DNA of 64,000 nt from Acidithiobacillus sp. AMEEHan (GTDB taxonomy: Bacteria; Pseudomonadota; Gammaproteobacteria; Acidithiobacillales; Acidithiobacillaceae), in contig NZ_CP118747.1 of NCBI RefSeq assembly GCF_030996345.1, positions 1,734,001 to 1,798,000 on the forward strand. Direction: 5' to 3'. The notes beneath the pieces are model-generated. The model made no database searches, was not told the DNA's origin, and saw only the letters and a program-made list of their open reading frames with translations. The position numbers and the translations under genes were made by a program. Shown here one piece after another: positions 14,469-24,610 of the stretch. How positions within the stretch are numbered: position 1 is the first letter of the stretch; each line of letters begins with the position of its first letter.

Positions 14469-15647
14469 TCAAAGCTTGGCGTAGGAGTGCAATCCCCCCA
14501 GGAACAGATCCACACCGATGAAGCAGAAGGTGACGGTCAGCAGACTGATGACCGACCACCAGGCCAAGGTTTTCCCCGATGGCCGATGCTGTGGACTGCG
14601 GCCCCGTAAATGCAGATACGCGGCGTAGTTGAGCCAGACGATCAGGGCCCAGGTTTCCTTGGGGTCCCAGGACCAAAAGCCCCCCCAGGCCTTTGCCGCC
14701 CATACCGCACCGAGAATGGTGCCAGCGGTAAAAAACAGGAAACCAAAGGTCACCATGGCCGCCATGATGCGTTCCAGTTGATTGAGATCGGGCAGGCGCT
14801 CCACCAAACGACTGCCCAGGCGTTCCGCCCGCTGGCGCAGCAGATAGGCAAGGCCGACCATTGCCGCCAGATAGAAATTGGCATAAGCGATGAACTCGCA
14901 GGGGACATGCAACTTGATCCAGAAGCTGTTCAGAGCTGGCACGATGGGCTGGATCTGATTTTGGTGGTAGGCGATTCCGACCCAAATCAGGAAGATATCG
15001 GCCGCCAGGATCATCGGCATGGCGAAGGCACCCAGGCCGCGACGCTTGCCCTGCGCTTCGTAGTACAGGTAGAAGAGAGCGGTAATGGTGCAGAGCAGCA
15101 CCATGGCATCATACATATTGGTGACCGGAATGTGGCCCCAGGATGGGTGCCCCACATAGGTCTCTTTCCAGCGGATCGCCAGGCCGGCAAAGCCGAGCAC
15201 GGTTGCCAGCCAGGCAAAGCGGTGACCGCGATCACCGGCACTCTGTGAACCGGCGTAGAGATACCAGTAATAGCTGGCCGCGCTTACCAGGATGGCAGCG
15301 CTCATCCAATAGAACATCGCGGTGCTCTGGAAGAGGTAGCGCAGCAGAAGACTGTCGGCGGCGGTGCAGCCAGCCATGTAGAGACCCACGCCTGGCGCTG
15401 CAACTACGAGAATGGCGAAAAACAGGCGGCGGAAGGCTGGCCAATGCCAGCCAAACCAAAGCAGTCCCGCATACCAGATCCCGAGGGTGATATATTGCCA
15501 CATCCAGAAGTCGGCGCGAAAAATCGCCCAGACGGCAAAGGCACCAGCGGTCAACGCCACCGCCCAAAGGCGTTGCCAGAGGCGTTGTTCCCGCGCTCCT
15601 TGAGGGAAGGCGAACCACTGACGAAGCTCACTGACATCAACAGCCAT
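14469..15647 (-). CDS. ccsA: System II cytochrome c maturation protein CcsA/ResC
   Basis: Polytopic inner-membrane haem handling protein that works with ResB to move haem to apocytochromes in the periplasm. It carries the WWD-type motif WGGFWSWDPKETWAL (about residue 320) and conserved His residues in HPSWGHIP, YHQNQ and KLHVPCEF. The ATG at 15647 has AGGAGG 8 bases upstream; a TTG two codons earlier is less likely. Last gene of the soxB-to-ccsA run, directly after soxA, so the maturation machinery is made together with its SoxA/SoxX clients. Confidence 0.9.
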   Translation of the reverse strand: MAVDVSELRQWFAFPQGAREQRLWQRLWAVALTAGAFAVWAIFRADFWMWQYITLGIWYAGLLWFGWHWPAFRRLFFAILVVAAPGVGLYMAGCTAADSLLLRYLFQSTAMFYWMSAAILVSAASYYWYLYAGSQSAGDRGHRFAWLATVLGFAGLAIRWKETYVGHPSWGHIPVTNMYDAMVLLCTITALFYLYYEAQGKRRGLGAFAMPMILAADIFLIWVGIAYHQNQIQPIVPALNSFWIKLHVPCEFIAYANFYLAAMVGLAYLLRQRAERLGSRLVERLPDLNQLERIMAAMVTFGFLFFTAGTILGAVWAAKAWGGFWSWDPKETWALIVWLNYAAYLHLRGRSPQHRPSGKTLAWWSVISLLTVTFCFIGVDLFLGGLHSYAKL

Positions 15648-15659
15648 GGTCAATCCTCC

Positions 15660-16532
15660 TCAGGGTCGATAGCCCGGGACATTCATCTTGATCCCGTTGC
15701 TGAGGTAACTCATGAAATACGCCAGATCACGATATTCTGGGCTATCCAGCTTTTGCGGGGCAGCGCCCACCTTTTTGTCGCAGCCCTGAAAACGCTTTTC
15801 AAAGGTATTGACGGCGCTCCAGGAGGCGCGATAAGTCGGGAAGTGCGCGCTTTGCCCGAGCACCGGCGAGATGATCTGTCCGCGCAGATATTTTCCGGCA
15901 TAGGCCACGTGACAACTGGCGCAGCTGAAATTGAGTTGTCCACGATGCATGAAGTAATAGGCCTTTCCTTCTTCAAAGGCGCGTACGGCTCCGGGACCCT
16001 CTACCTTGACATCGGTAGGCATTCCATTGGATAGCGAGCCAAAGTAGGTTTCCAGAGCAATCAGATCGCTGCTGCCGAGCTGCAAAGGCGCCAGATGATT
16101 GTCTACCCGGCAGGCATTGATGCGCATCGCGGCAGTGACCACCTGATGCGTCTTGTCGCTGTAATAGGGATAGCCGGCAGCAACACCCTTGCCGCCATCA
16201 GGGAAGCAGGACGCATAGGTTTTTCCATCCGGAAATTTGCTATCCCAAAGTTTTTTTCCTTGGCTCAGGGTAAGATCGCCGGGATTGAATTGTAGCGCCT
16301 GTTGGTACTGTTCATAGTCCTGTTTATTGAAGGCATAACTCCCCAGCGCGTACTGTTCGAGACTCATTTTAGGGAATTGTTCCTTGAAGTATTGGTGAAA
16401 TTCCTGCAGCGTCTTCTGTGGACCAACCTTGGTATTCCCCAGTTGCCACCAATCGATGGCGTTGGCCGAGAGGGCGGCACTACCAAGTGCCAAGCCCAAG
16501 CTCAAGGAGAGGATTCGTTTTGCGTATTTCAT
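15660..16532 (-). CDS. soxA: SoxA, thiosulfate-oxidising cytochrome c subunit (single haem)
   Basis: Catalytic subunit of SoxAX, which joins thiosulfate to the SoxY carrier in the periplasm. Signal peptide of about 25 residues (ends ANA). One haem site, SCASCH (Cys204, Cys207, His208), and the active-site Cys251 in RFQGCDKKVGAAP, the residue that carries the persulfide haem ligand. The N-terminal haem of diheme SoxA proteins is missing: Cys109 (YASCFPDG) and Cys141 (INACRVD) probably form a disulfide, as in other single-haem SoxA. Length 290. It lies between soxX (24-base gap) and ccsA (12-base gap). Confidence 0.93.
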   Translation of the reverse strand: MKYAKRILSLSLGLALGSAALSANAIDWWQLGNTKVGPQKTLQEFHQYFKEQFPKMSLEQYALGSYAFNKQDYEQYQQALQFNPGDLTLSQGKKLWDSKFPDGKTYASCFPDGGKGVAAGYPYYSDKTHQVVTAAMRINACRVDNHLAPLQLGSSDLIALETYFGSLSNGMPTDVKVEGPGAVRAFEEGKAYYFMHRGQLNFSCASCHVAYAGKYLRGQIISPVLGQSAHFPTYRASWSAVNTFEKRFQGCDKKVGAAPQKLDSPEYRDLAYFMSYLSNGIKMNVPGYRP

Positions 16533-16556: not shown

Positions 16557-16922
16557 TTACTTTTGCAGGGACCAAAGATAATCCGCAACCAGTTCGAGTT
16601 GATGATGTGTCAATACCTTGTTTTTGCCGAATTGCGGCATATTGATGTGGGGTATGGTTTTTTCCGGATCGTAAAGAAAATCTACCAGTTTTTGCCGATT
16701 ATGAAAGACGATCTTGAAGGGAAAATGGGTCAGATCTGGTCCTACATCGCCGGCCATCGTCCCTCCCGGCAATACGTGGCAGGCAAGACAGTTACCTTCG
16801 GCACGATTGAAGGCAATGGACTTTCCTGCGGCGATGTCGGCGGCGCTGGGCGCGGCGATCGCGGCGGCGGGCAGGGCAACGGCACTCAGCAAGAGCAGGA
16901 TGCGAGAGCTTTGATGAAACAT
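16557..16922 (-). CDS. soxX: SoxX, monohaem cytochrome c subunit
   Basis: Small haem partner of SoxA. 121 residues with a signal peptide (to about AIAA, 24), haem site NCLACH (Cys45, Cys48, His49) and distal Met95 in HINMPQFG, with ADYLWSL at the end as in class I cytochromes. The ATG at 16922 follows AGGAG by 6 bases; an open frame to 17126 overlaps resB and is not real. Gene order soxX-soxA is direct, with no room for soxY or soxZ between them. Confidence 0.92.
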   Translation of the reverse strand: MFHQSSRILLLLSAVALPAAAIAAPSAADIAAGKSIAFNRAEGNCLACHVLPGGTMAGDVGPDLTHFPFKIVFHNRQKLVDFLYDPEKTIPHINMPQFGKNKVLTHHQLELVADYLWSLQK

Positions 16923-16944: not shown

Positions 16945-18759
16945 CTAGGATCGGAGCTCCTCGGTGATTTCGAGGAATTCCTGGTGAAAATCCTCCGAAT
17001 TGCGTGAACTATCGCCGCTGAGCCGCAATTGATGGGCAGCCGTCTGGCGAATCCACAGGCGTTTACGCGGCACGTAGAAGAGAATGAAGATTCCGCCCAC
17101 CAGCAGAAAACACGCGCCATAGACAATCTGCATTCCGGGGTATTTGGTCATTTCGAGTCCTGCCGACCAACGCAGGTCAAGATGATGCAGGGTTACCAGA
17201 AAGGGAAGGGGATAGTCATGCAGGCTGTGCAGTGCAATCAGGCTCGCCCGCAGAAAATTGGATCGTTCCTGCGCCGTGAGTTGAATGTCATGCGCTGCAG
17301 CGACCTGCTTTAGGGTTTGCCGGAAAACTGTTGCACTCGCATTGGCGCCCTGCGCGGCGGCATTCTCCAACGCGCCTAGGTAGTCCAGGAAAAGGCCTGC
17401 ACCGCCCTTGGGACCCTCGGGAATGGCCAGATATTGTTCTGCGCCACTTCTCTGAGGATGGTAGGCAAGCAGCAAAAAGCTCTCTCCATGACGCTTCAGA
17501 GGCCACAAATAACTCTTGTAGATCCAGTTTTCGCCAGTTTTGCGATCGGTAACCCGGTAGCGGACGATGGGACCGACATTGATCATACTGTGTCCTGGAC
17601 GCTCTGCCAGTCCCAGATCCTTGCGCGGAATGGTGTTGTTGACTTTCAGTTTCTCGATGGTCAGCTCGTAGTTACCGGAGCCGGCACGCAGCTTTTGGCC
17701 AACGCGTACGGCGAAGCTATTGGCTGGCAATTCAGGATCGAGCAGGGAATGACTCTGGAATTGGAGTAACGAGCGACCGTCGTTATACGAAGTTTGATAG
17801 ATACTGACACCGTCGTAGGTCAGTGGATGATTGGGATAGGCGATGCCGGAATGGAGCAATTTTCCGTGCGCGTTGTATAGGGTGATACGGGAGATGAAGC
17901 TTTTGGCGATGCCATTGCGGTAGTGGGTGATGGTGAAATGATCGAGATGGACGGTGAAAGGAAGGCGTTGCACCAGAAAACCATCACCAATCAGCTCGAA
18001 CATTGCGTTCACGCTTTGTCCTACGGGAATGCTGATGATGCCACGGAAGGCGCTGTTGTTGGCAGGAAGCCAATCTTTTTGGGGAATTTTGGATAGGGGT
18101 AACGCAAAATTGGTTAGCGGCGTAATGGAGCCCAGCCACTCCCGGATCTTCAGTGGTAAATTTGCGTTGTATAGTGCTCCGGCGCAGAACAGAATGATGG
18201 CGAAATGGGTAAAAATATAACCGAGACGATAGAATCTGCCTTTCTGTGCCAGGATGATTTTCTTTCCATCCGGTCCTGCAAGTGCATGGGTGCGATATCC
18301 TCTCTCCCGCAAGATGGCCAGCTCTTGATCCAGGGAACCACTGCTCGATGCTGCACGGATTTCTGCCTGTTCTGGACGACTGGCGAGAAATTTGTGGCTG
18401 GAGAGTCGCTTGGGCAGCGCCATGTCGCGCAGCATGGTGGGCGTATTGCGGGTAATGCAGGATGCCGTCGACAGCACCAGAAAAGCCACCAGGCCGATAT
18501 ACCAACCACAACGATAGACATCATACAGATCGAGGTCAGCGAATACGCGGTACCAGAATGGGCCAAACTGTGCGACGTACTGGTGGTAGCTCACCTGCTG
18601 GGCAAGAATGGTACCGATGATTGACGCGATAGCGACGAAGAGCAGCAGGTGAACCGCCAGACGCATGGAAACCAGCGCCTGCCAGACAAGGCGGGCGCTG
18701 GCGCTCCAATGGCGTCGTGCGAGCGGCTCAGGAAGCGAGGGGCTGTGCTCGATCGCCAT
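16945..18759 (-). CDS. resB: System II cytochrome c maturation protein ResB/Ccs1
   Basis: A 604-residue membrane protein. Three spans near the N-terminus (MRLAVHLLLFVAIASIIGTI, residues 32-51, is the first), a large periplasmic domain with DGVSIYQTSYNDG, and a last span (about 545-565, IVYGACFLLVGGIFILFYVP) before a cytoplasmic tail. With CcsA it forms the System II haem ligation complex. It overlaps the upstream membrane cytochrome gene by 32 bases and is followed 22 bases later by soxX, so all are likely one transcript. Confidence 0.9.
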   Translation of the reverse strand: MAIEHSPSLPEPLARRHWSASARLVWQALVSMRLAVHLLLFVAIASIIGTILAQQVSYHQYVAQFGPFWYRVFADLDLYDVYRCGWYIGLVAFLVLSTASCITRNTPTMLRDMALPKRLSSHKFLASRPEQAEIRAASSSGSLDQELAILRERGYRTHALAGPDGKKIILAQKGRFYRLGYIFTHFAIILFCAGALYNANLPLKIREWLGSITPLTNFALPLSKIPQKDWLPANNSAFRGIISIPVGQSVNAMFELIGDGFLVQRLPFTVHLDHFTITHYRNGIAKSFISRITLYNAHGKLLHSGIAYPNHPLTYDGVSIYQTSYNDGRSLLQFQSHSLLDPELPANSFAVRVGQKLRAGSGNYELTIEKLKVNNTIPRKDLGLAERPGHSMINVGPIVRYRVTDRKTGENWIYKSYLWPLKRHGESFLLLAYHPQRSGAEQYLAIPEGPKGGAGLFLDYLGALENAAAQGANASATVFRQTLKQVAAAHDIQLTAQERSNFLRASLIALHSLHDYPLPFLVTLHHLDLRWSAGLEMTKYPGMQIVYGACFLLVGGIFILFYVPRKRLWIRQTAAHQLRLSGDSSRNSEDFHQEFLEITEELRS

Positions 18760-19474
18760 GGTCGGAACTCTTCAATATCCAGATCTGATAGAGGCTAATG
18801 GCCATTCCAATCAGTACCACAGGGCAAGAGAAAATGCCGCCGATCAAAACCAGCCAGACAAAATCCGGACTTTGTTTGGTCAGGAACCAGCCGGCGAAAT
18901 CGATAAAAAATGCCAGGAAGGGAATGGCAATGAAAAAGACTTTCACTCCCTTGGAGCTGCGCGTGCGCGCAAAGATCCAGCCAGCAATCCAGAAGATCAC
19001 GCCTAGGGTGGTCAAATGAATCATGCCATTCATCAGCATAGCGGAGTAGGGCATCCCCATATCGACCTTGGCCTGCTTTTTCAACAAATCGAAACTGCCA
19101 ATGTTAGGCATACCAATGCTGTGACATTTCAGACACGAGGCGTTGATCAACGGGCGTACGTTTTTCTCGTAATCCGTGCGACTTTCACCATTGGCGATCC
19201 AGTGATTGACCGCTGACAGCATTTTTGGTTTTTCTGCAGCGGGGACTTGGGCCATGGACATCATCGCTGGCAACATGGTCTGCAGTTTGCTGGAACTGCG
19301 GTTGCCATAGTAGTGGACGACCAGGTCCTGCAGCGAAATCCCGGGCTTGCCATCGGCGCCGTGGATCACGAAGTAGGTATAGGCCTCTGCGGACAGGAGG
19401 CCCAGGCCGACCAGAAAGATGAAACCCGTATATAGCAGTTTTTCGATGAAGGGCAGATCGGGCAGGAGTTTCAT
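18728..19474 (-). CDS. Membrane-bound c-type cytochrome of unknown function
   Basis: A 248-residue protein with one N-terminal span (about 13-33), a periplasmic segment with one haem site CLKCH (Cys114, Cys117, His118), and about three C-terminal spans (about 149-167, 175-193, 206-228). Met122 and several other Met follow the haem site (SIGMPNIG, VDMGMPYSAM), giving possible axial ligands. I do not recognise a named family. It starts 12 bases after soxB ends and overlaps resB by 32 bases. The haem and position suggest it passes electrons from Sox enzymes into the membrane, but that is inference. Confidence 0.75.
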   Translation of the reverse strand: MKLLPDLPFIEKLLYTGFIFLVGLGLLSAEAYTYFVIHGADGKPGISLQDLVVHYYGNRSSSKLQTMLPAMMSMAQVPAAEKPKMLSAVNHWIANGESRTDYEKNVRPLINASCLKCHSIGMPNIGSFDLLKKQAKVDMGMPYSAMLMNGMIHLTTLGVIFWIAGWIFARTRSSKGVKVFFIAIPFLAFFIDFAGWFLTKQSPDFVWLVLIGGIFSCPVVLIGMAISLYQIWILKSSDHGDRAQPLAS

Positions 19475-19486
19475 GGATCGACACCC

Positions 19487-21223
19487 TCAGAGATCATATT
19501 CCTTGGGGAAGGCGATACCAGGATTGCCACGCATATTTTTGGTCAGCACGGGCAGGTCGCGATGGTCGACACGGACGGTTTTCTGGTCCTTCAGCCATTT
19601 CGCGAAAATATCCCAGACCGGTGTCCCCTCAACCTTTTGCATGGCCGCCCAGCCAGCAACCTTGTATTTTTTGCTCGCGTGCACCAGCTTGCCGCCGACC
19701 CGCAGGTCGCTGATGCGTTTGTTGATGGTTTCCGAGGGATCGAAAGTATACTGGATGTTTCCTACCCGAATCATATCGCCACCCTGAATGTAATAGGGAT
19801 CGGGATTGAAAAGATTATCCGCCACCTGTTCCATGACGTTCTTCAGCTCGGCTCCGGTGTATTCGGTCACTGTCACCTGTGGATAGGTGATGGCGGTTTG
19901 CCCCATGACATCTTCCATGGTGATGGTTTCCCCTGGCAGTTTGGTGTAGCCCCAGCGGAAGCCCGGAGAGAAAGCTGCTTCGCAATCCATTTCTTCGCGC
20001 AGCGCATTACAGATCAACTGATCGAAGGTGCCGTTGAAATTGTCGCGACGGTAGAGCAGGCTCTCGGTGACGGCCATGGGTTCCGCCAGTTTCTCTGCAT
20101 AGGGTGCCCGGACCTTCGCGATGTAGTCGTCCATTTCTTTGTCTGCTGGAATCATGTTCGAAAGAATGGGTAAATAATGGAAACGCCAGCCTTTCAGCTT
20201 TCCCTTGCCCACATCGAGATCGAAACGCGCCAGGAATTTGCCATTGGTGCTGGTATTGATGATGATCGTCTTGTTGACCATTACCGGCTTCGGCCCCATG
20301 ATTTCATGCGTATGGCCGCCAAGAATGATATCGATGCCATTCACCTGGGAAGCCATCTTTTTATCGACATCTGCACCATTGTGCGAAAGTACGACCACCA
20401 CGTCCGCGTGATGTTTTTCTCGACATTCATCGACCATTTTTTGCATGTGCCCAGGATGAATGCCAAAAGACCATTTCGGAATGAAGTACGCAGGGTTGGC
20501 GATCGGCGTGAAGGGGAATGATTGTCCGATCACCGCCACTTTCACGCCATTGACCTCACGAATATCATAGGGATCGAACACCGGCTCATCCCAGGGGATG
20601 GTGAAGACGTTTTGCGAAAGAAATTTCGCCTTGAGTTTGTGTTTCAGTAAATACTCGACGCGGTCGGCACCGTAGGTAAATTCCCAGTGTCCGACGAAAT
20701 AGTCTTCCTTCAGTAGATTTTGCGCGCCGACCATGTCCTCGCCGCGCGTCCACAGACTGGTTGCTGAGCCCTGCCAAGCATCGCCGCCATCAAAGAGCAG
20801 GGTACGATCGGCGCCGACCTGCTCGCGGTAGCGCTTCACCAGGGTGGCGATGTGCGAATAACCGCCGATTTTCCCATATTTGTGGGCCAAGGTATCGAAG
20901 TCCAGACAGGACAGGGCATACCCTTCTGGAGTCCCCGCCTTGATGCCGTAATAGTCAAGTTTGTAATTGCCCACCAGATGTGGCGTCACCCCCCATTCAT
21001 GCTGCTTGCGGGTGCCGATATTGGTGCCCGGTTCGCGCCACCAAACCGGAAGCAGCTGGGCATGGGTATCGGTGATGTGAAGCAGGGTGACATTGCCGTA
21101 CTTGGGGATGTCGTAGGGATCACTTCCGCTTCCCCAACTCGAAGCCAGCGCCGAAGGCGCGAGAAAACCACTGGCACCGGCAATACCCATGATGGCCATA
21201 AAATCTCTGCGGCTGATATTCAT
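19487..21223 (-). CDS. soxB: SoxB, thiosulfohydrolase
   Basis: Dimanganese enzyme that removes the terminal sulfone as sulfate from SoxY-bound intermediates. 578 residues, of the 5'-nucleotidase superfamily. It has a twin-arginine signal (SRRDFMAIMGIAGASGF), then metal motifs HITDTHAQ (Asp52, His54), FDGGDAWQGS (Asp148), LSHNGADVDK and GGHTHE. Length and motifs agree with characterised SoxB. A GAGGAG site is about 10 bases upstream of the ATG. First of the run soxB, membrane cytochrome, resB, soxX, soxA, ccsA. Its substrate carrier SoxYZ is not encoded here. Confidence 0.95.
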   Translation of the reverse strand: MNISRRDFMAIMGIAGASGFLAPSALASSWGSGSDPYDIPKYGNVTLLHITDTHAQLLPVWWREPGTNIGTRKQHEWGVTPHLVGNYKLDYYGIKAGTPEGYALSCLDFDTLAHKYGKIGGYSHIATLVKRYREQVGADRTLLFDGGDAWQGSATSLWTRGEDMVGAQNLLKEDYFVGHWEFTYGADRVEYLLKHKLKAKFLSQNVFTIPWDEPVFDPYDIREVNGVKVAVIGQSFPFTPIANPAYFIPKWSFGIHPGHMQKMVDECREKHHADVVVVLSHNGADVDKKMASQVNGIDIILGGHTHEIMGPKPVMVNKTIIINTSTNGKFLARFDLDVGKGKLKGWRFHYLPILSNMIPADKEMDDYIAKVRAPYAEKLAEPMAVTESLLYRRDNFNGTFDQLICNALREEMDCEAAFSPGFRWGYTKLPGETITMEDVMGQTAITYPQVTVTEYTGAELKNVMEQVADNLFNPDPYYIQGGDMIRVGNIQYTFDPSETINKRISDLRVGGKLVHASKKYKVAGWAAMQKVEGTPVWDIFAKWLKDQKTVRVDHRDLPVLTKNMRGNPGIAFPKEYDL

Positions 21224-21296: not shown

Positions 21297-21815
21297 TCAT
21301 GCGGCGGGTGCAACCCAGTCCGGGATTTTGTGCAACTCCCGAGACATGGGGATCTGCTGTAGGGCCTTGATGACACCACTGTCGACCGCTTTGGTGACCT
21401 TTTTGTTGGCGCTGGAGGTACCGGCGTAGGCGATGCGCTCGCCATAGACGATGTAACTGTCTTGCCCGCGCCCAAACACCGTCAGGTTAAGCGGGCAGGC
21501 AGCGGCACTCGGCCAGTAGGTATTGAGCAACTTGCTGAAATCGTAGGGGTTGCAAAAAACGATGGCGCGTGCGTCGGTAAAATGTACGGCATCAAAGTCA
21601 GGGATCTTGAGGGTTTTCTGCTGCCCTTCGATGAGCTTGAGAATGTTGAGCTTGAGGACGATCTTGTAGCCGGCAGCATGAAGACTGTTAGTGATTTCCG
21701 ACATCGTGCTGGCAATGGGGAGATCGACCTTCTCCACATACAGTGGAGCAGCGCAGGCCTGCGTCACGGTGAAAACCGTGAAAAAACCGAGTACGGCGGC
21801 GGTGATTCGCTTCAT
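21297..21815 (-). CDS. Exported DUF302 family protein
   Basis: A 172-residue protein with a signal peptide (MKRITAAVLGFFTVFTVTQA) followed by a DUF302-like domain (SEITNSLHAAGYKIV, then DFDAVHFTDARAIVFCNP and CPLNLTVFGRGQDSYI). The ATG at 21815 has GGAG 7 bases upstream; a TTG four codons earlier is less likely. It lies 73 bases upstream of soxB on the same strand, with a small GCCGCA/TGCGGC hairpin at its stop. Function of the family is unknown; two Cys in the mature protein could form a disulfide or bind a ligand. Confidence 0.7.
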   Translation of the reverse strand: MKRITAAVLGFFTVFTVTQACAAPLYVEKVDLPIASTMSEITNSLHAAGYKIVLKLNILKLIEGQQKTLKIPDFDAVHFTDARAIVFCNPYDFSKLLNTYWPSAAACPLNLTVFGRGQDSYIVYGERIAYAGTSSANKKVTKAVDSGVIKALQQIPMSRELHKIPDWVAPAA

Positions 21816-22032
21816 TAGAGACTCCAAATGTCATTGCATAAACATTGTAGCAATATGTATGCCGTAAAGATTGGCAGTCCAGGTGGAACCGGGCCGAATA
21901 CAGAAAGTCTCTGAAAATCAGAAGGGTGTTGGTAATCTGCGGGGCTTGGGAAGAGGGATGGCGCGGATGACGCCGTTGCAGCCGGCTATGGGATGGACCG
22001 AATGGAACAGTAGGGCGCTGTCGGGGAACAAT

Positions 22033-22059: not shown

Positions 22060-22350
22060 TCAAGCCTTGGGGACGTAGATGTCGCACCAGCCCTTGGGAT
22101 CGATTTTGCCAGCCACGGCCTTGCATTCGCCCATGGCCGTGGGCGTGGGACCAGGAATGAACAGCTTGCAGTTGCTGCACATTTCCGAACCTTTGGGTTT
22201 GTCGCGATAGTTGACTGCCGTCTTGGCCATTTTGTCGGCGGCCTCGGCGGGGCTGGTGAATACCAGGGGAGCGATCGTGGCGACGCCAACAAACAAGGCA
22301 CTTTTGCGCAACCAATCGCGGCGGTTCATTTTGGGGGTTTCTGCACTCAT
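22060..22350 (-). CDS. High-potential iron-sulfur protein (Iro/HiPIP)
   Basis: Small periplasmic electron carrier with one [4Fe-4S] cluster. 96 residues: a twin-arginine signal (NRRDWLRKSALFVG) and four cluster Cys, Cys58 and Cys61 (MCSNCKLF), Cys76 (GECKAV) and Cys89 (GWCDIY), in the HiPIP spacing. The mature part is only about 58 residues, like Iro of Acidithiobacillus. In this context it may accept electrons from sulfur compound oxidation. It is about 245 bases upstream of the DUF302 gene and probably a separate unit. An AAGGAG site precedes the ATG. Confidence 0.9.
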   Translation of the reverse strand: MSAETPKMNRRDWLRKSALFVGVATIAPLVFTSPAEAADKMAKTAVNYRDKPKGSEMCSNCKLFIPGPTPTAMGECKAVAGKIDPKGWCDIYVPKA

Positions 22351-22417: not shown

Positions 22418-23245
22418 CTAAAGATAGCGTAACGATAGATCCAGGCTTTGCACGTTGCGCGTGATACTTCCTACGGACAGGTAGTCGACGCCCGTGGCGG
22501 CGACGGCGGTTACAGTCTCCAGCGAAATATTGCCCGAGGCTTCGAGGGGAATCCGTCTGGCGACCCGCGCCACGGCTTCGCGTAGGGCCGGCAGCGAGAA
22601 ATTGTCGAGGAGCACCATGTCGGCGCCCGCAGCGACGGCCTCGTCCAGTTGCTCGAGGGTCTCGACCTCGACCTCGACGCGGGTGAGCACCGGTGCCAGG
22701 GCGCGAGCACGGGCAACCGCCGGGGCGATCCCGCCAATGGCCGCCAGGTGATTTTCCTTGATGAGGATGCCGTCGAAGAGTCCGAGGCGGTGGTTATGAC
22801 CGCCACCAACGCGCACGGCATATTTTTGCGCCAAACGCAGACCGGGCAACGTTTTCCGGGTATCCAGCAGGCGCGTCGAGCTACCCTGCAGACGCTCGAC
22901 AAAGGCGCGGGTCTGGGTCGCGGTGGCGGACAGGAGTTGCAGAAAATTCAGTGCGCTGCGCTCCCCAGTGAGGAGCGCCCTGGCGGGGCCATGCAGGGTA
23001 CAAAGGACTTGCTCTGGAGCGATTTCTGCGCCTTCGGTAACCTGCCAATCTACCTGCAAATCAGCGCTGAGCTGGGCGAAGACCGCTTCGACATAGGGTT
23101 GACCGCAGAGCACCCCTGCTTCCCGACTGATGATCCGCGCCTGTAATTCTTGCCGTGGTGCGATGAGTGCCGCGCTCAAGTCGCCGCTGCCTAGATCTTC
23201 CGCCAAGGCGTGTCGTACCGATTCCGTGATGTCAGCCGGAAGCAT
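22418..23245 (-). CDS. nadC: Nicotinate-nucleotide pyrophosphorylase (carboxylating)
   Basis: Makes nicotinate mononucleotide from quinolinate and PRPP in NAD synthesis. The 275-residue protein has GERSALNFLQLLSATAT, LLDTRKTLPGLR, KYAVRVGGGHNHR, LFDGILIKENH and VDYLSVGSIT, all standard NadC motifs. AGGAGG stands 4-5 bases before the ATG and lies inside the end of nhaA (14-base overlap). Confidence 0.95.
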   Translation of the reverse strand: MLPADITESVRHALAEDLGSGDLSAALIAPRQELQARIISREAGVLCGQPYVEAVFAQLSADLQVDWQVTEGAEIAPEQVLCTLHGPARALLTGERSALNFLQLLSATATQTRAFVERLQGSSTRLLDTRKTLPGLRLAQKYAVRVGGGHNHRLGLFDGILIKENHLAAIGGIAPAVARARALAPVLTRVEVEVETLEQLDEAVAAGADMVLLDNFSLPALREAVARVARRIPLEASGNISLETVTAVAATGVDYLSVGSITRNVQSLDLSLRYL

Positions 23246-24610
23246 TTTCCCTCCTGGTGCTCGCTACCCATAGCCAGAGAAGACCGATGATTCCCGCCAG
23301 CAACGAGGCAGTCAAAATTCCGACCTTGGCCTCTTCCCGCATTTCCGGTTGCGTAAAAGCCAATTGGCTGATGAACAGTGACATAGTAAAGCCGATGCCG
23401 CCGAGCCAAGCTGCCCCCAACAGGTGTCGCCAGGCAACACCTTGCGGCAGCTTGGCGATGTGCAGACACACCGCTAGCCAACTGGCAAGAGAGATGCCGA
23501 CGAATTTGCCCACCACCAAACCGAGCACGATGCCCAAGGTCACGGTGCTCCACAGCATTCCCCCGTTCACCTGAGAAAAATCGATCCCGGCATTGGCAAG
23601 GGCAAAGACGGGTAGCACCCCAAAGCTTACCCAGGGACCGAGGCCATGCTCCAGGCGTTGCTGCGGGGAAATCATCTCCCGGCTCTGCTGGTGCAATTGC
23701 TCCGCGAGCCGGCTGAGCTTGGGGTTGATCAATGGGTCGAAGGTCTCTTCCTCGCGGAGCAGCCGGCCCAGATTTTCTTCCTGCTCGTGCAGGGTAGCGC
23801 GTAATTGCGTTGGGCTCACCCGCCCGCGTGCCGGCAGCGTCATCGCCAGCAGGATGCCGGCGACCGCAGCGTGTACGCCAGATACCAGCAAAAAATACCA
23901 GAGCAATATTCCCAACAGGAGATAGGGGAGGGGACGGCGAATACCCCCTGGTTGAGCAGCAGGAGAACGAGGAAAATCCCCCCAGCCACGGCCAGCGCCC
24001 ATGCGTCGATGTGGGAGGTATAGAATATGGCGATGACGAGCACCGCGCCCAGATCATCGACAATGGCCAGGGCCGTCAGGAAGATGATGAGATTACGCGG
24101 CACGCGCCAGGCCAGCAGCACCAGAATGCCGACGGCAAAGGCGATGTCCGTCGCCATGGGGATACCCCAACCGGCATAGGCCGGGCCAGTCCCATTCAGG
24201 ACGGAGTAGAGCAGGGCGGGAACCAGCATGCCCCCCGCAGCAGCCACGATGGGCAAAATGGCATCACTGATTTTGGCCAGTTCCCCCACCAACAATTCGC
24301 GCTTGAGCTCCAGGCCGACCACGAAGAAAAAAATCGCCATCAGCGCATCATTGACCCATTCCTGCAGGTCATGATCGAGGCTCCAGTCGGCTAAGTGCAG
24401 ACTGAAATGCTGATGCCAGAAATGGTGATAGGCATCATGCAGGGTGGAATTGCTGAGGATCAAGGTTAGTACCGTGACACCGATGAGAACCATGCCGCCG
24501 GCGGTCGCGCGGCGCAGGAATTGCTCAAACGGCGTCAGTACCTTGCCGAAGAGGAGCTCCAGCGGGTAAGGACGTTCCTGTGGAAAGCTCGTGGGGCGCT
24601 CAGACTGCAT
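23232..24610 (-). pseudogene. nhaA: Na+/H+ antiporter NhaA, frameshifted at a C5 (G5 on the coding strand) run
   Basis: The first frame gives the N-terminal two thirds, with VNDALMAIFFFVVGLELKRE and PMATDIAFAVGIL (the DD motif follows in ALAIVDDLGAVLVIA). The second frame gives the rest, GGIRRPLPYLLLGI through GGIGFTMSLFISQLAF. The break is at 23944-23948; adding one G restores LLLNQGGIRRPLPY and a protein of about 459 residues. The span is 1,379 bases, one short of a multiple of three. Otherwise no stops or decay, so a sequencing error is at least as likely as real inactivation. It would exchange Na+ for H+ in the inner membrane. Confidence 0.88.

Follow-up and report, generated by a model that had tools for sequence, protein, structure and literature searches.

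The sox cluster of the window, that is, of the whole 64-kb stretch of DNA analysed, carries between soxB and resB a gene for a four-span monohaem c-type cytochrome, here given the working name CYTM, which by its sequence is a member of an unnamed gammaproteobacterial family. There seems to be about an even chance that CYTM functions as a membrane-anchored cytochrome that relays electrons from SoxAX into the membrane chain, the most probable acceptor being the quinone pool from which CuA-less (quinol-type) oxidases are supplied. Genomes like this one are without the textbook route formed by bc1 and a CuA oxidase, and CYTM provides a single candidate gene for the path of SoxAX electrons. The available part of one report states that the electron outlet of Sox in Acidithiobacillus remains to be verified (PMC6335251). 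The features of the locus are collected in Table 1.

The CYTM ORF starts with ATG and encodes 248 amino acids with a single CLKCH motif. The AlphaFold2 model, built from an 80-row alignment, has a mean pLDDT of 90.5 and contains four long helices (spans 1 to 4 in Table 1), with a helical domain (residues 38-142) that falls between spans 1 and 2, and hydropathy also yields four span groups. Thus, ORF, hydropathy, and model confirm the one CLKCH site and about four spans that the initial annotation had read from the sequence. Since near relatives carry it at 95-96% identity and 66 other loci of the class match it over its length at about 27-37%, CYTM is not a chance ORF. The nearest named relative belongs to Acidithiobacillus sp. 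YTS05 (96%), and a paralogue with 59% identity is encoded in the same genome near hemL, dnaA, dnaN, and recF, names that were read from translations. CYTM has no Pfam or NCBIfam match above cut-off, and a scan of 80 family members gave weak and scattered matches only; PF00034 did not match at 0.01 (whole protein) or at 1 (domain). Solved structures compared by sequence returned weak matches confined to the haem-motif stretches, Foldseek found nothing convincing with the full model and with the domain, a c-type cytochrome being absent from the matches listed, and a plasmid and phage search gave no match.

Table 1. Features of the CYTM gene and of the surrounding sox cluster (positions in the window).
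Feature	Position	Strand	Basis
CYTM, four-span monohaem c-type cytochrome	18728..19474	(-)	ORF, alignment, AlphaFold2
CYTM span 1, residues 9-37	19364..19450	(-)	AlphaFold2 and hydropathy
CYTM residues 50-97, proposed class-I cytochrome c C-terminal half, placed first	19184..19327	(-)	profile comparison
CYTM Met72, proposed distal haem ligand	19259..19261	(-)	conservation: 80/80 haem members
CYTM residues 98-142, class-I cytochrome c N-terminal half with CXXCH	19049..19183	(-)	profile comparison; weak Pfam PccH match
CYTM CLKCH haem attachment site, residues 114-118	19121..19135	(-)	sequence
CYTM span 2, residues 143-168; invariant His153, Met replacing His151	18971..19048	(-)	AlphaFold2 and alignment
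CYTM span 3, residues 175-201; invariant Asp192, Trp196, Thr199	18872..18952	(-)	AlphaFold2 and alignment
CYTM span 4, residues 203-232	18779..18868	(-)	AlphaFold2
High-potential iron-sulfur protein (HiPIP), cluster head	22060..22350	(-)	PF01355 31.9 bits, cut-off 22
Exported-looking protein upstream of soxB	21297..21827	(-)	without Pfam family at 0.001
soxB	19487..21223	(-)	TIGR04486 821.7 bits
32-base CYTM/resB overlap	18728..18759	(-)	
resB	16945..18759	(-)	PF05140 336 bits
soxX, monohaem cytochrome	16557..16922	(-)	PF00034 25.7 bits; named by place and 63% identity to sox-II copy
soxA	15660..16532	(-)	TIGR04484 219 bits
resC / ccsB	14469..15653	(-)	TIGR03144 224 bits

The cluster runs in the order HiPIP, an exported-looking protein without family, soxB, CYTM, resB, soxX, soxA, and resC. 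The matches of SoxB, SoxA, and ResC/CcsB exceed the cut-offs of curated families and that of ResB exceeds the Pfam cut-off; for SoxX, only the match to the general Cytochrom_C family is above cut-off. CYTM starts 12 bases after the end of soxB and the ATG of resB lies 32 bases inside CYTM; co-transcription of CYTM with the sox cluster is plausible. The 32-base overlap reported by the initial annotation holds at this locus and is kept in the two near relatives checked (L022 and L023), but it is no family rule, since at L025-L029 a resB start is possible about 10 bases downstream of CYTM. No match to soxYZ, which precedes soxB in Acidithiobacillus loci, was obtained within the window. Elsewhere in the window, nhaA is divided between two ORFs that overlap in different frames (23232-24610, minus strand), and in L022 a single ORF of 460 aa spans the two.

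For Acidithiobacillus caldus and A. thiooxidans, the accessible parts of the published record place a 'hyp' gene, annotated as a hypothetical protein, in the sox-I cluster, in the order soxB-hyp-resB (PMC3440390, PMC4109375, PMC6335251). By gene order this 'hyp' is the same gene as CYTM, that of A. caldus being likened by position and not by sequence. In the portion of that study available, two comparisons out of four show the A. caldus 'hyp' induced along with soxB, by 31- and 25-fold (PMC3440390). No function for the sox-I 'hyp' or for CYTM was found in the accessible portions of the literature searched, which lay mostly outside the subscription journals. The possibility that both published 'hyp' genes correspond to CYTM was rejected, the 'hyp' of the sox-II cluster being in this genome a DUF302 protein (L196, 9071-9673, minus strand).

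The haem domain of CYTM is likely, though not proved, to be a class-I cytochrome c in circularly permuted form, a reading that profile comparison supports, whereas structure search does not. The class-I hallmark, a distal Met and a C-terminal helix after CXXCH, is absent in CYTM, and the sole invariant Met of the family, Met72, lies 42 residues ahead of CXXCH. Thirteen small cytochromes or cytochrome domains encoded at the loci of the family follow the standard order of N-helix, CXXCH, Tyr-containing segment, Met-Pro, and C-helix, the last terminating in Trp-Ile-x-x-Gly-Ala; in CYTM the order is reversed, with Met72 and a Trp-x-x-x-Gly segment first and the CXXCH half second. The upstream half aligned with C-terminal positions 77-95 of the 13-row standard profile with an hhalign score of 26.2, against a maximum of 19.9 and a mean of 10.4 in 200 column shuffles; with a 5-row profile of other small cytochromes, the score was 12.2, not above shuffles (mean 9.2, sd 2.2, max 18.6). 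The whole permuted profile aligned over 82 columns with a score of 72.5 and the unpermuted one over 39 columns with 62.0, the shuffle maximum being 72.3. When single sequences were scored against the 13-sequence profile, permutation at the best breakpoint moved the median from 13.5 to 16.3 bits, and the N-half alone gave 16.1. Pfam Cytochrom_C matched 10/27 permuted domains versus 3/27 with the C-half shuffled, and 17 of the 80 unpermuted domains of the whole set were matched as well. In a Pfam test with four members, permutation was required for three of them to match Cytochrom_C over almost its whole length, all below cut-off, and the window's own CYTM domain had no Cytochrom_C match in the same test, permuted or not. 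The Foldseek comparison, which listed no c-type cytochrome among the matches for the domain, is taken to be dependent on sequence order.

The Planctomycete-type small cytochromes c (PF07635), which are encoded near other family members, resemble CYTM half by half in profile comparison, their N-terminal half matching the profile of CYTM residues 98-142 and their C-terminal half that of residues 50-97. In CYTM, however, the order of the halves is reversed, and membrane spans flank them. The literature searched, composed mostly of sources other than subscription journals, yielded no comparable permuted cytochrome c. If true, the permutation would mean that a very familiar fold has been rearranged in nature in an unusual way. 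A broader and more tentative idea, which we regard as rather doubtful, is that a natural permuted class-I cytochrome c, which arose when two tandem copies lost opposite halves, forms part of a four-span cytochrome c:quinone reductase, and that this enzyme enables Sox to operate in acidophilic sulfur oxidisers that have neither bc1 nor a CuA cytochrome c oxidase.

The 80 haem members share invariant Tyr55, Gly57, Met72, Trp92, the Cys and His residues of CXXCH, Gly140, His153, Pro185, Asp192, Trp196, Thr199, and Gly213. Five haem-less relatives have Met72 and Trp92 gapped and keep His151, His153, and Asp192 (5/5 each), and a sixth divergent row has CXXCH and retains Met72 and Trp92. Since Met72 and Trp92 are lost together with the haem site, Met72 is likely to be the distal haem ligand of CYTM. 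Moreover, His151 is present in 66/66 rows outside the Acidithiobacillaceae, and all 14 rows inside have Met instead; with this loss of the first His of the HxH motif, the function of CYTM may have shifted in the Acidithiobacillaceae. The membrane part could be useful without haem, as the haem-less relatives retain its HxH and Asp, and one of them adjoins cobalt-uptake genes. CYTM might, then, be a redox or gas sensor or have some other membrane function, with a haem that does not serve to relay electrons. Such a role seems quite improbable, as the CXXCH site, Met72, and Trp92 are kept in 80/80 haem-member rows and electron-transfer proteins are encoded next to the family beyond chance (25/127 first neighbours versus 6/386 further ones). 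In the haem-less relatives at L138, L139, L140, L141, L142, and L047, a Met/His-rich stretch replaces the haem segment; that of L138 lies near CbiM (cobalt uptake) and an ABC ATPase, and that of L140 adjoins a DUF4198 protein.

Within the Acidithiobacillaceae, all 13 sox-type CYTM copies adjoin soxB, and homologues are thus not restricted to places away from sox genes. Among 29 genomes, 16 have CYTM without bc1, 12 have bc1 cytochrome b without CYTM, none has both, and one, the 71% complete G012, has neither; this exclusion has a Fisher's exact p of 2.5e-7 with kinship disregarded. On a SoxB tree of 25 genomes, each trait switches about three times, so few that a kinship-aware test is out of reach. 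The bc1 genomes that keep soxB contain soxY, soxZ, and soxB in 10/10 loci, full-length soxX in 0/10, and full-length soxA in 1/10 (G025). In the CYTM genomes, soxA is full-length in 14 of 15 loci and soxX in 13 of 15, and the misses (G001, G009) lie at contig ends. CYTM is missing where soxXA has decayed, though soxYZB remains. Two genomes speak against a link with Sox, namely G016, with CYTM and no soxB, and G025, with an intact soxA and no CYTM. In the accessible part of a published study, iron oxidisers are marked by having lost soxXA and by possessing COX and bc1 (PMC8528912), and for this reason the effects of soxXA, bc1, cytochrome oxidase, and CYTM cannot be told apart. CYTM goes with SoxXA and with the absence of bc1, two associations that are confounded mutually and with iron oxidation. 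As to the decayed genes, soxA remnants with stop codons are present in L200 and L206 (bc1 genomes with soxYZB intact), L200 also having a soxX remnant with a stop. Furthermore, G024 (L197) possesses a second sox-I-type soxYZ-soxB with no adjoining CYTM, resB, soxXA, or resC.

The bc1 cytochrome b (PF00033) had 0 matches in this 99.98%-complete genome, against matches in 8 of 14 control rings. PF00115 (COX1) and PF00116 (COX2) gave three matches each, and the CuA cysteine pair C-x3-C is absent from all three COX2 ORFs. Thus, no route from cytochrome c to bc1 or to a CuA oxidase was found in this genome, the CuA status of oxidases having been assessed here and in the operon of L032. In L032, a CuA-less oxidase operon is located directly upstream of soxYZB-CYTM-resB-soxXA-resC, and its COX2 shows an aromatic-rich motif without the CuA pair; oxidase-like genes were also read by eye upstream in L025, L026, L029, and L051. 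The contiguity of both operons in L032, together with the one cysteine that CyoA there retains at the CuA place, would fit CYTM being a donor or docking cytochrome of a neighbouring CuA-less haem-copper oxidase, handing SoxAX electrons directly to it and substituting for CuA without involving quinone. Such oxidases might oxidise soluble cytochromes c besides ubiquinol, according to the part of the source available (PMC8528912). Nevertheless, donation to an oxidase seems unlikely, for the sox-CYTM operon of this genome adjoins none of its three oxidases, and the listed neighbours of the three family members in hydrogenase operons include no oxidase gene.

The preferred reading, transfer from SoxAX towards quinone, is supported by the adjacency to soxB in 13/13 copies, the retention of CYTM with soxXA, the absence of bc1, and the CuA-less oxidases. 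The suggestion made in the initial annotation that CYTM could be the missing link for SoxAX electrons therefore gains support inside the Acidithiobacillaceae as regards gene association, and the electron transfer itself is what we infer from it. SoxAX, perhaps via the HiPIP encoded at the cluster head, would reduce the haem predicted to be bound at CLKCH, in a domain that would sit on the periplasmic face atop spans 2 and 3. The electron would then pass to a quinone near two invariant, presumably buried residues, His153 in span 2 and Asp192 in span 3, which would form the putative quinone site, and the resulting quinol would feed a quinol-type (CuA-less) oxidase. Haem attachment, electron direction, and quinone as the acceptor are all predicted here, and a quinone site in CYTM was recognised by none of the tools used. 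Quinone reduction with protons taken from an acid periplasm becomes about 59 mV easier per pH unit, which would favour a c-type donor. The NapC/NrfH quinol dehydrogenases, with four or more c-haems, are likewise membrane-anchored next to the quinone pool, whereas CYTM has one CXXCH and four spans.

A profile search (E 1e-5) detected CYTM in 63/369 genomes of the class, 54 of which lie outside the Acidithiobacillaceae with a full-length copy and provided 66 full-length loci. In the CYTM tree, the 14 Acidithiobacillaceae rows fall on one side of a branch (SH-aLRT 100), as do the 8 sox-type rows (SH-aLRT 89). Relatives of SoxA, SoxB, SoxX, ResB, and ResC occur in 0/66 of the loci outside the Acidithiobacillaceae (906 kb). 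CYTM as a sox-specific gammaproteobacterial gene was rejected, with soxB in 23/54 of these genomes, none near CYTM, versus 150/369 overall. The search for the family and its neighbours thus recovered a family tied to sox inside the Acidithiobacillaceae and not outside. The description of CYTM as an integral part of the sox operon is correct here but does not extend to the family, given these 66 loci and the 59% identical paralogue near dnaA and hemL. The same data bear on the haem delivery also considered in the initial annotation, in which CYTM would act with ResB and ResC as a maturation factor for SoxA and SoxX. Although CYTM has soxB and resB as its direct neighbours in one row of genes and is lost along with soxXA, this role is not favoured and appears improbable, with ResB, ResC, or Sox relatives lacking in all 66 loci, the paralogue at dnaA/hemL, and three members in NiFe-hydrogenase operons with a b-type cytochrome. 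A NiFe hydrogenase with a b-type cytochrome needs no c-haem attachment. From these neighbours and the 0/66 count, the family resembles electron transfer more than a function in sox alone or in haem delivery.

CYTM as a general bc1 substitute was also rejected outside the Acidithiobacillaceae. There, bc1 is present in 46/54 CYTM genomes and in 24 of 26 genomes without CYTM, hand-picked from several hundred, and with no exclusion CYTM is no general replacement for bc1.

Exported-looking CXXCH genes account for 25/127 first neighbours, 7/122 second, 4/114 third, and 6/386 further ones, counts that rest on simple gene calls and a simple signal test, and another exported c-type cytochrome lies within two genes of CYTM in 22/66 loci. 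In the three hydrogenase operons, CYTM is located between the genes for the b-type cytochrome and the hydrogenase protease (Pfam check in L091). The HupC-type cytochrome b of uptake hydrogenases (PF01292) is, like CYTM, a membrane cytochrome in a lithotrophic operon and constitutes the link to quinone, the same role as proposed for CYTM; it is nevertheless a different family, and in L091 the two genes are direct neighbours. If the proposed role holds, a family found beside hydrogenase and soluble cytochromes would suggest a general membrane relay in Gammaproteobacteria. The hydrogenase-operon copies lie at L038 6310-7071, L091 7701-8462, and L105 7689-8450, and in eight further loci (L109, L112, L114, L116, L117, L119, L123, and L125) a gene for a six-CXXCH cytochrome closely follows or overlaps CYTM.
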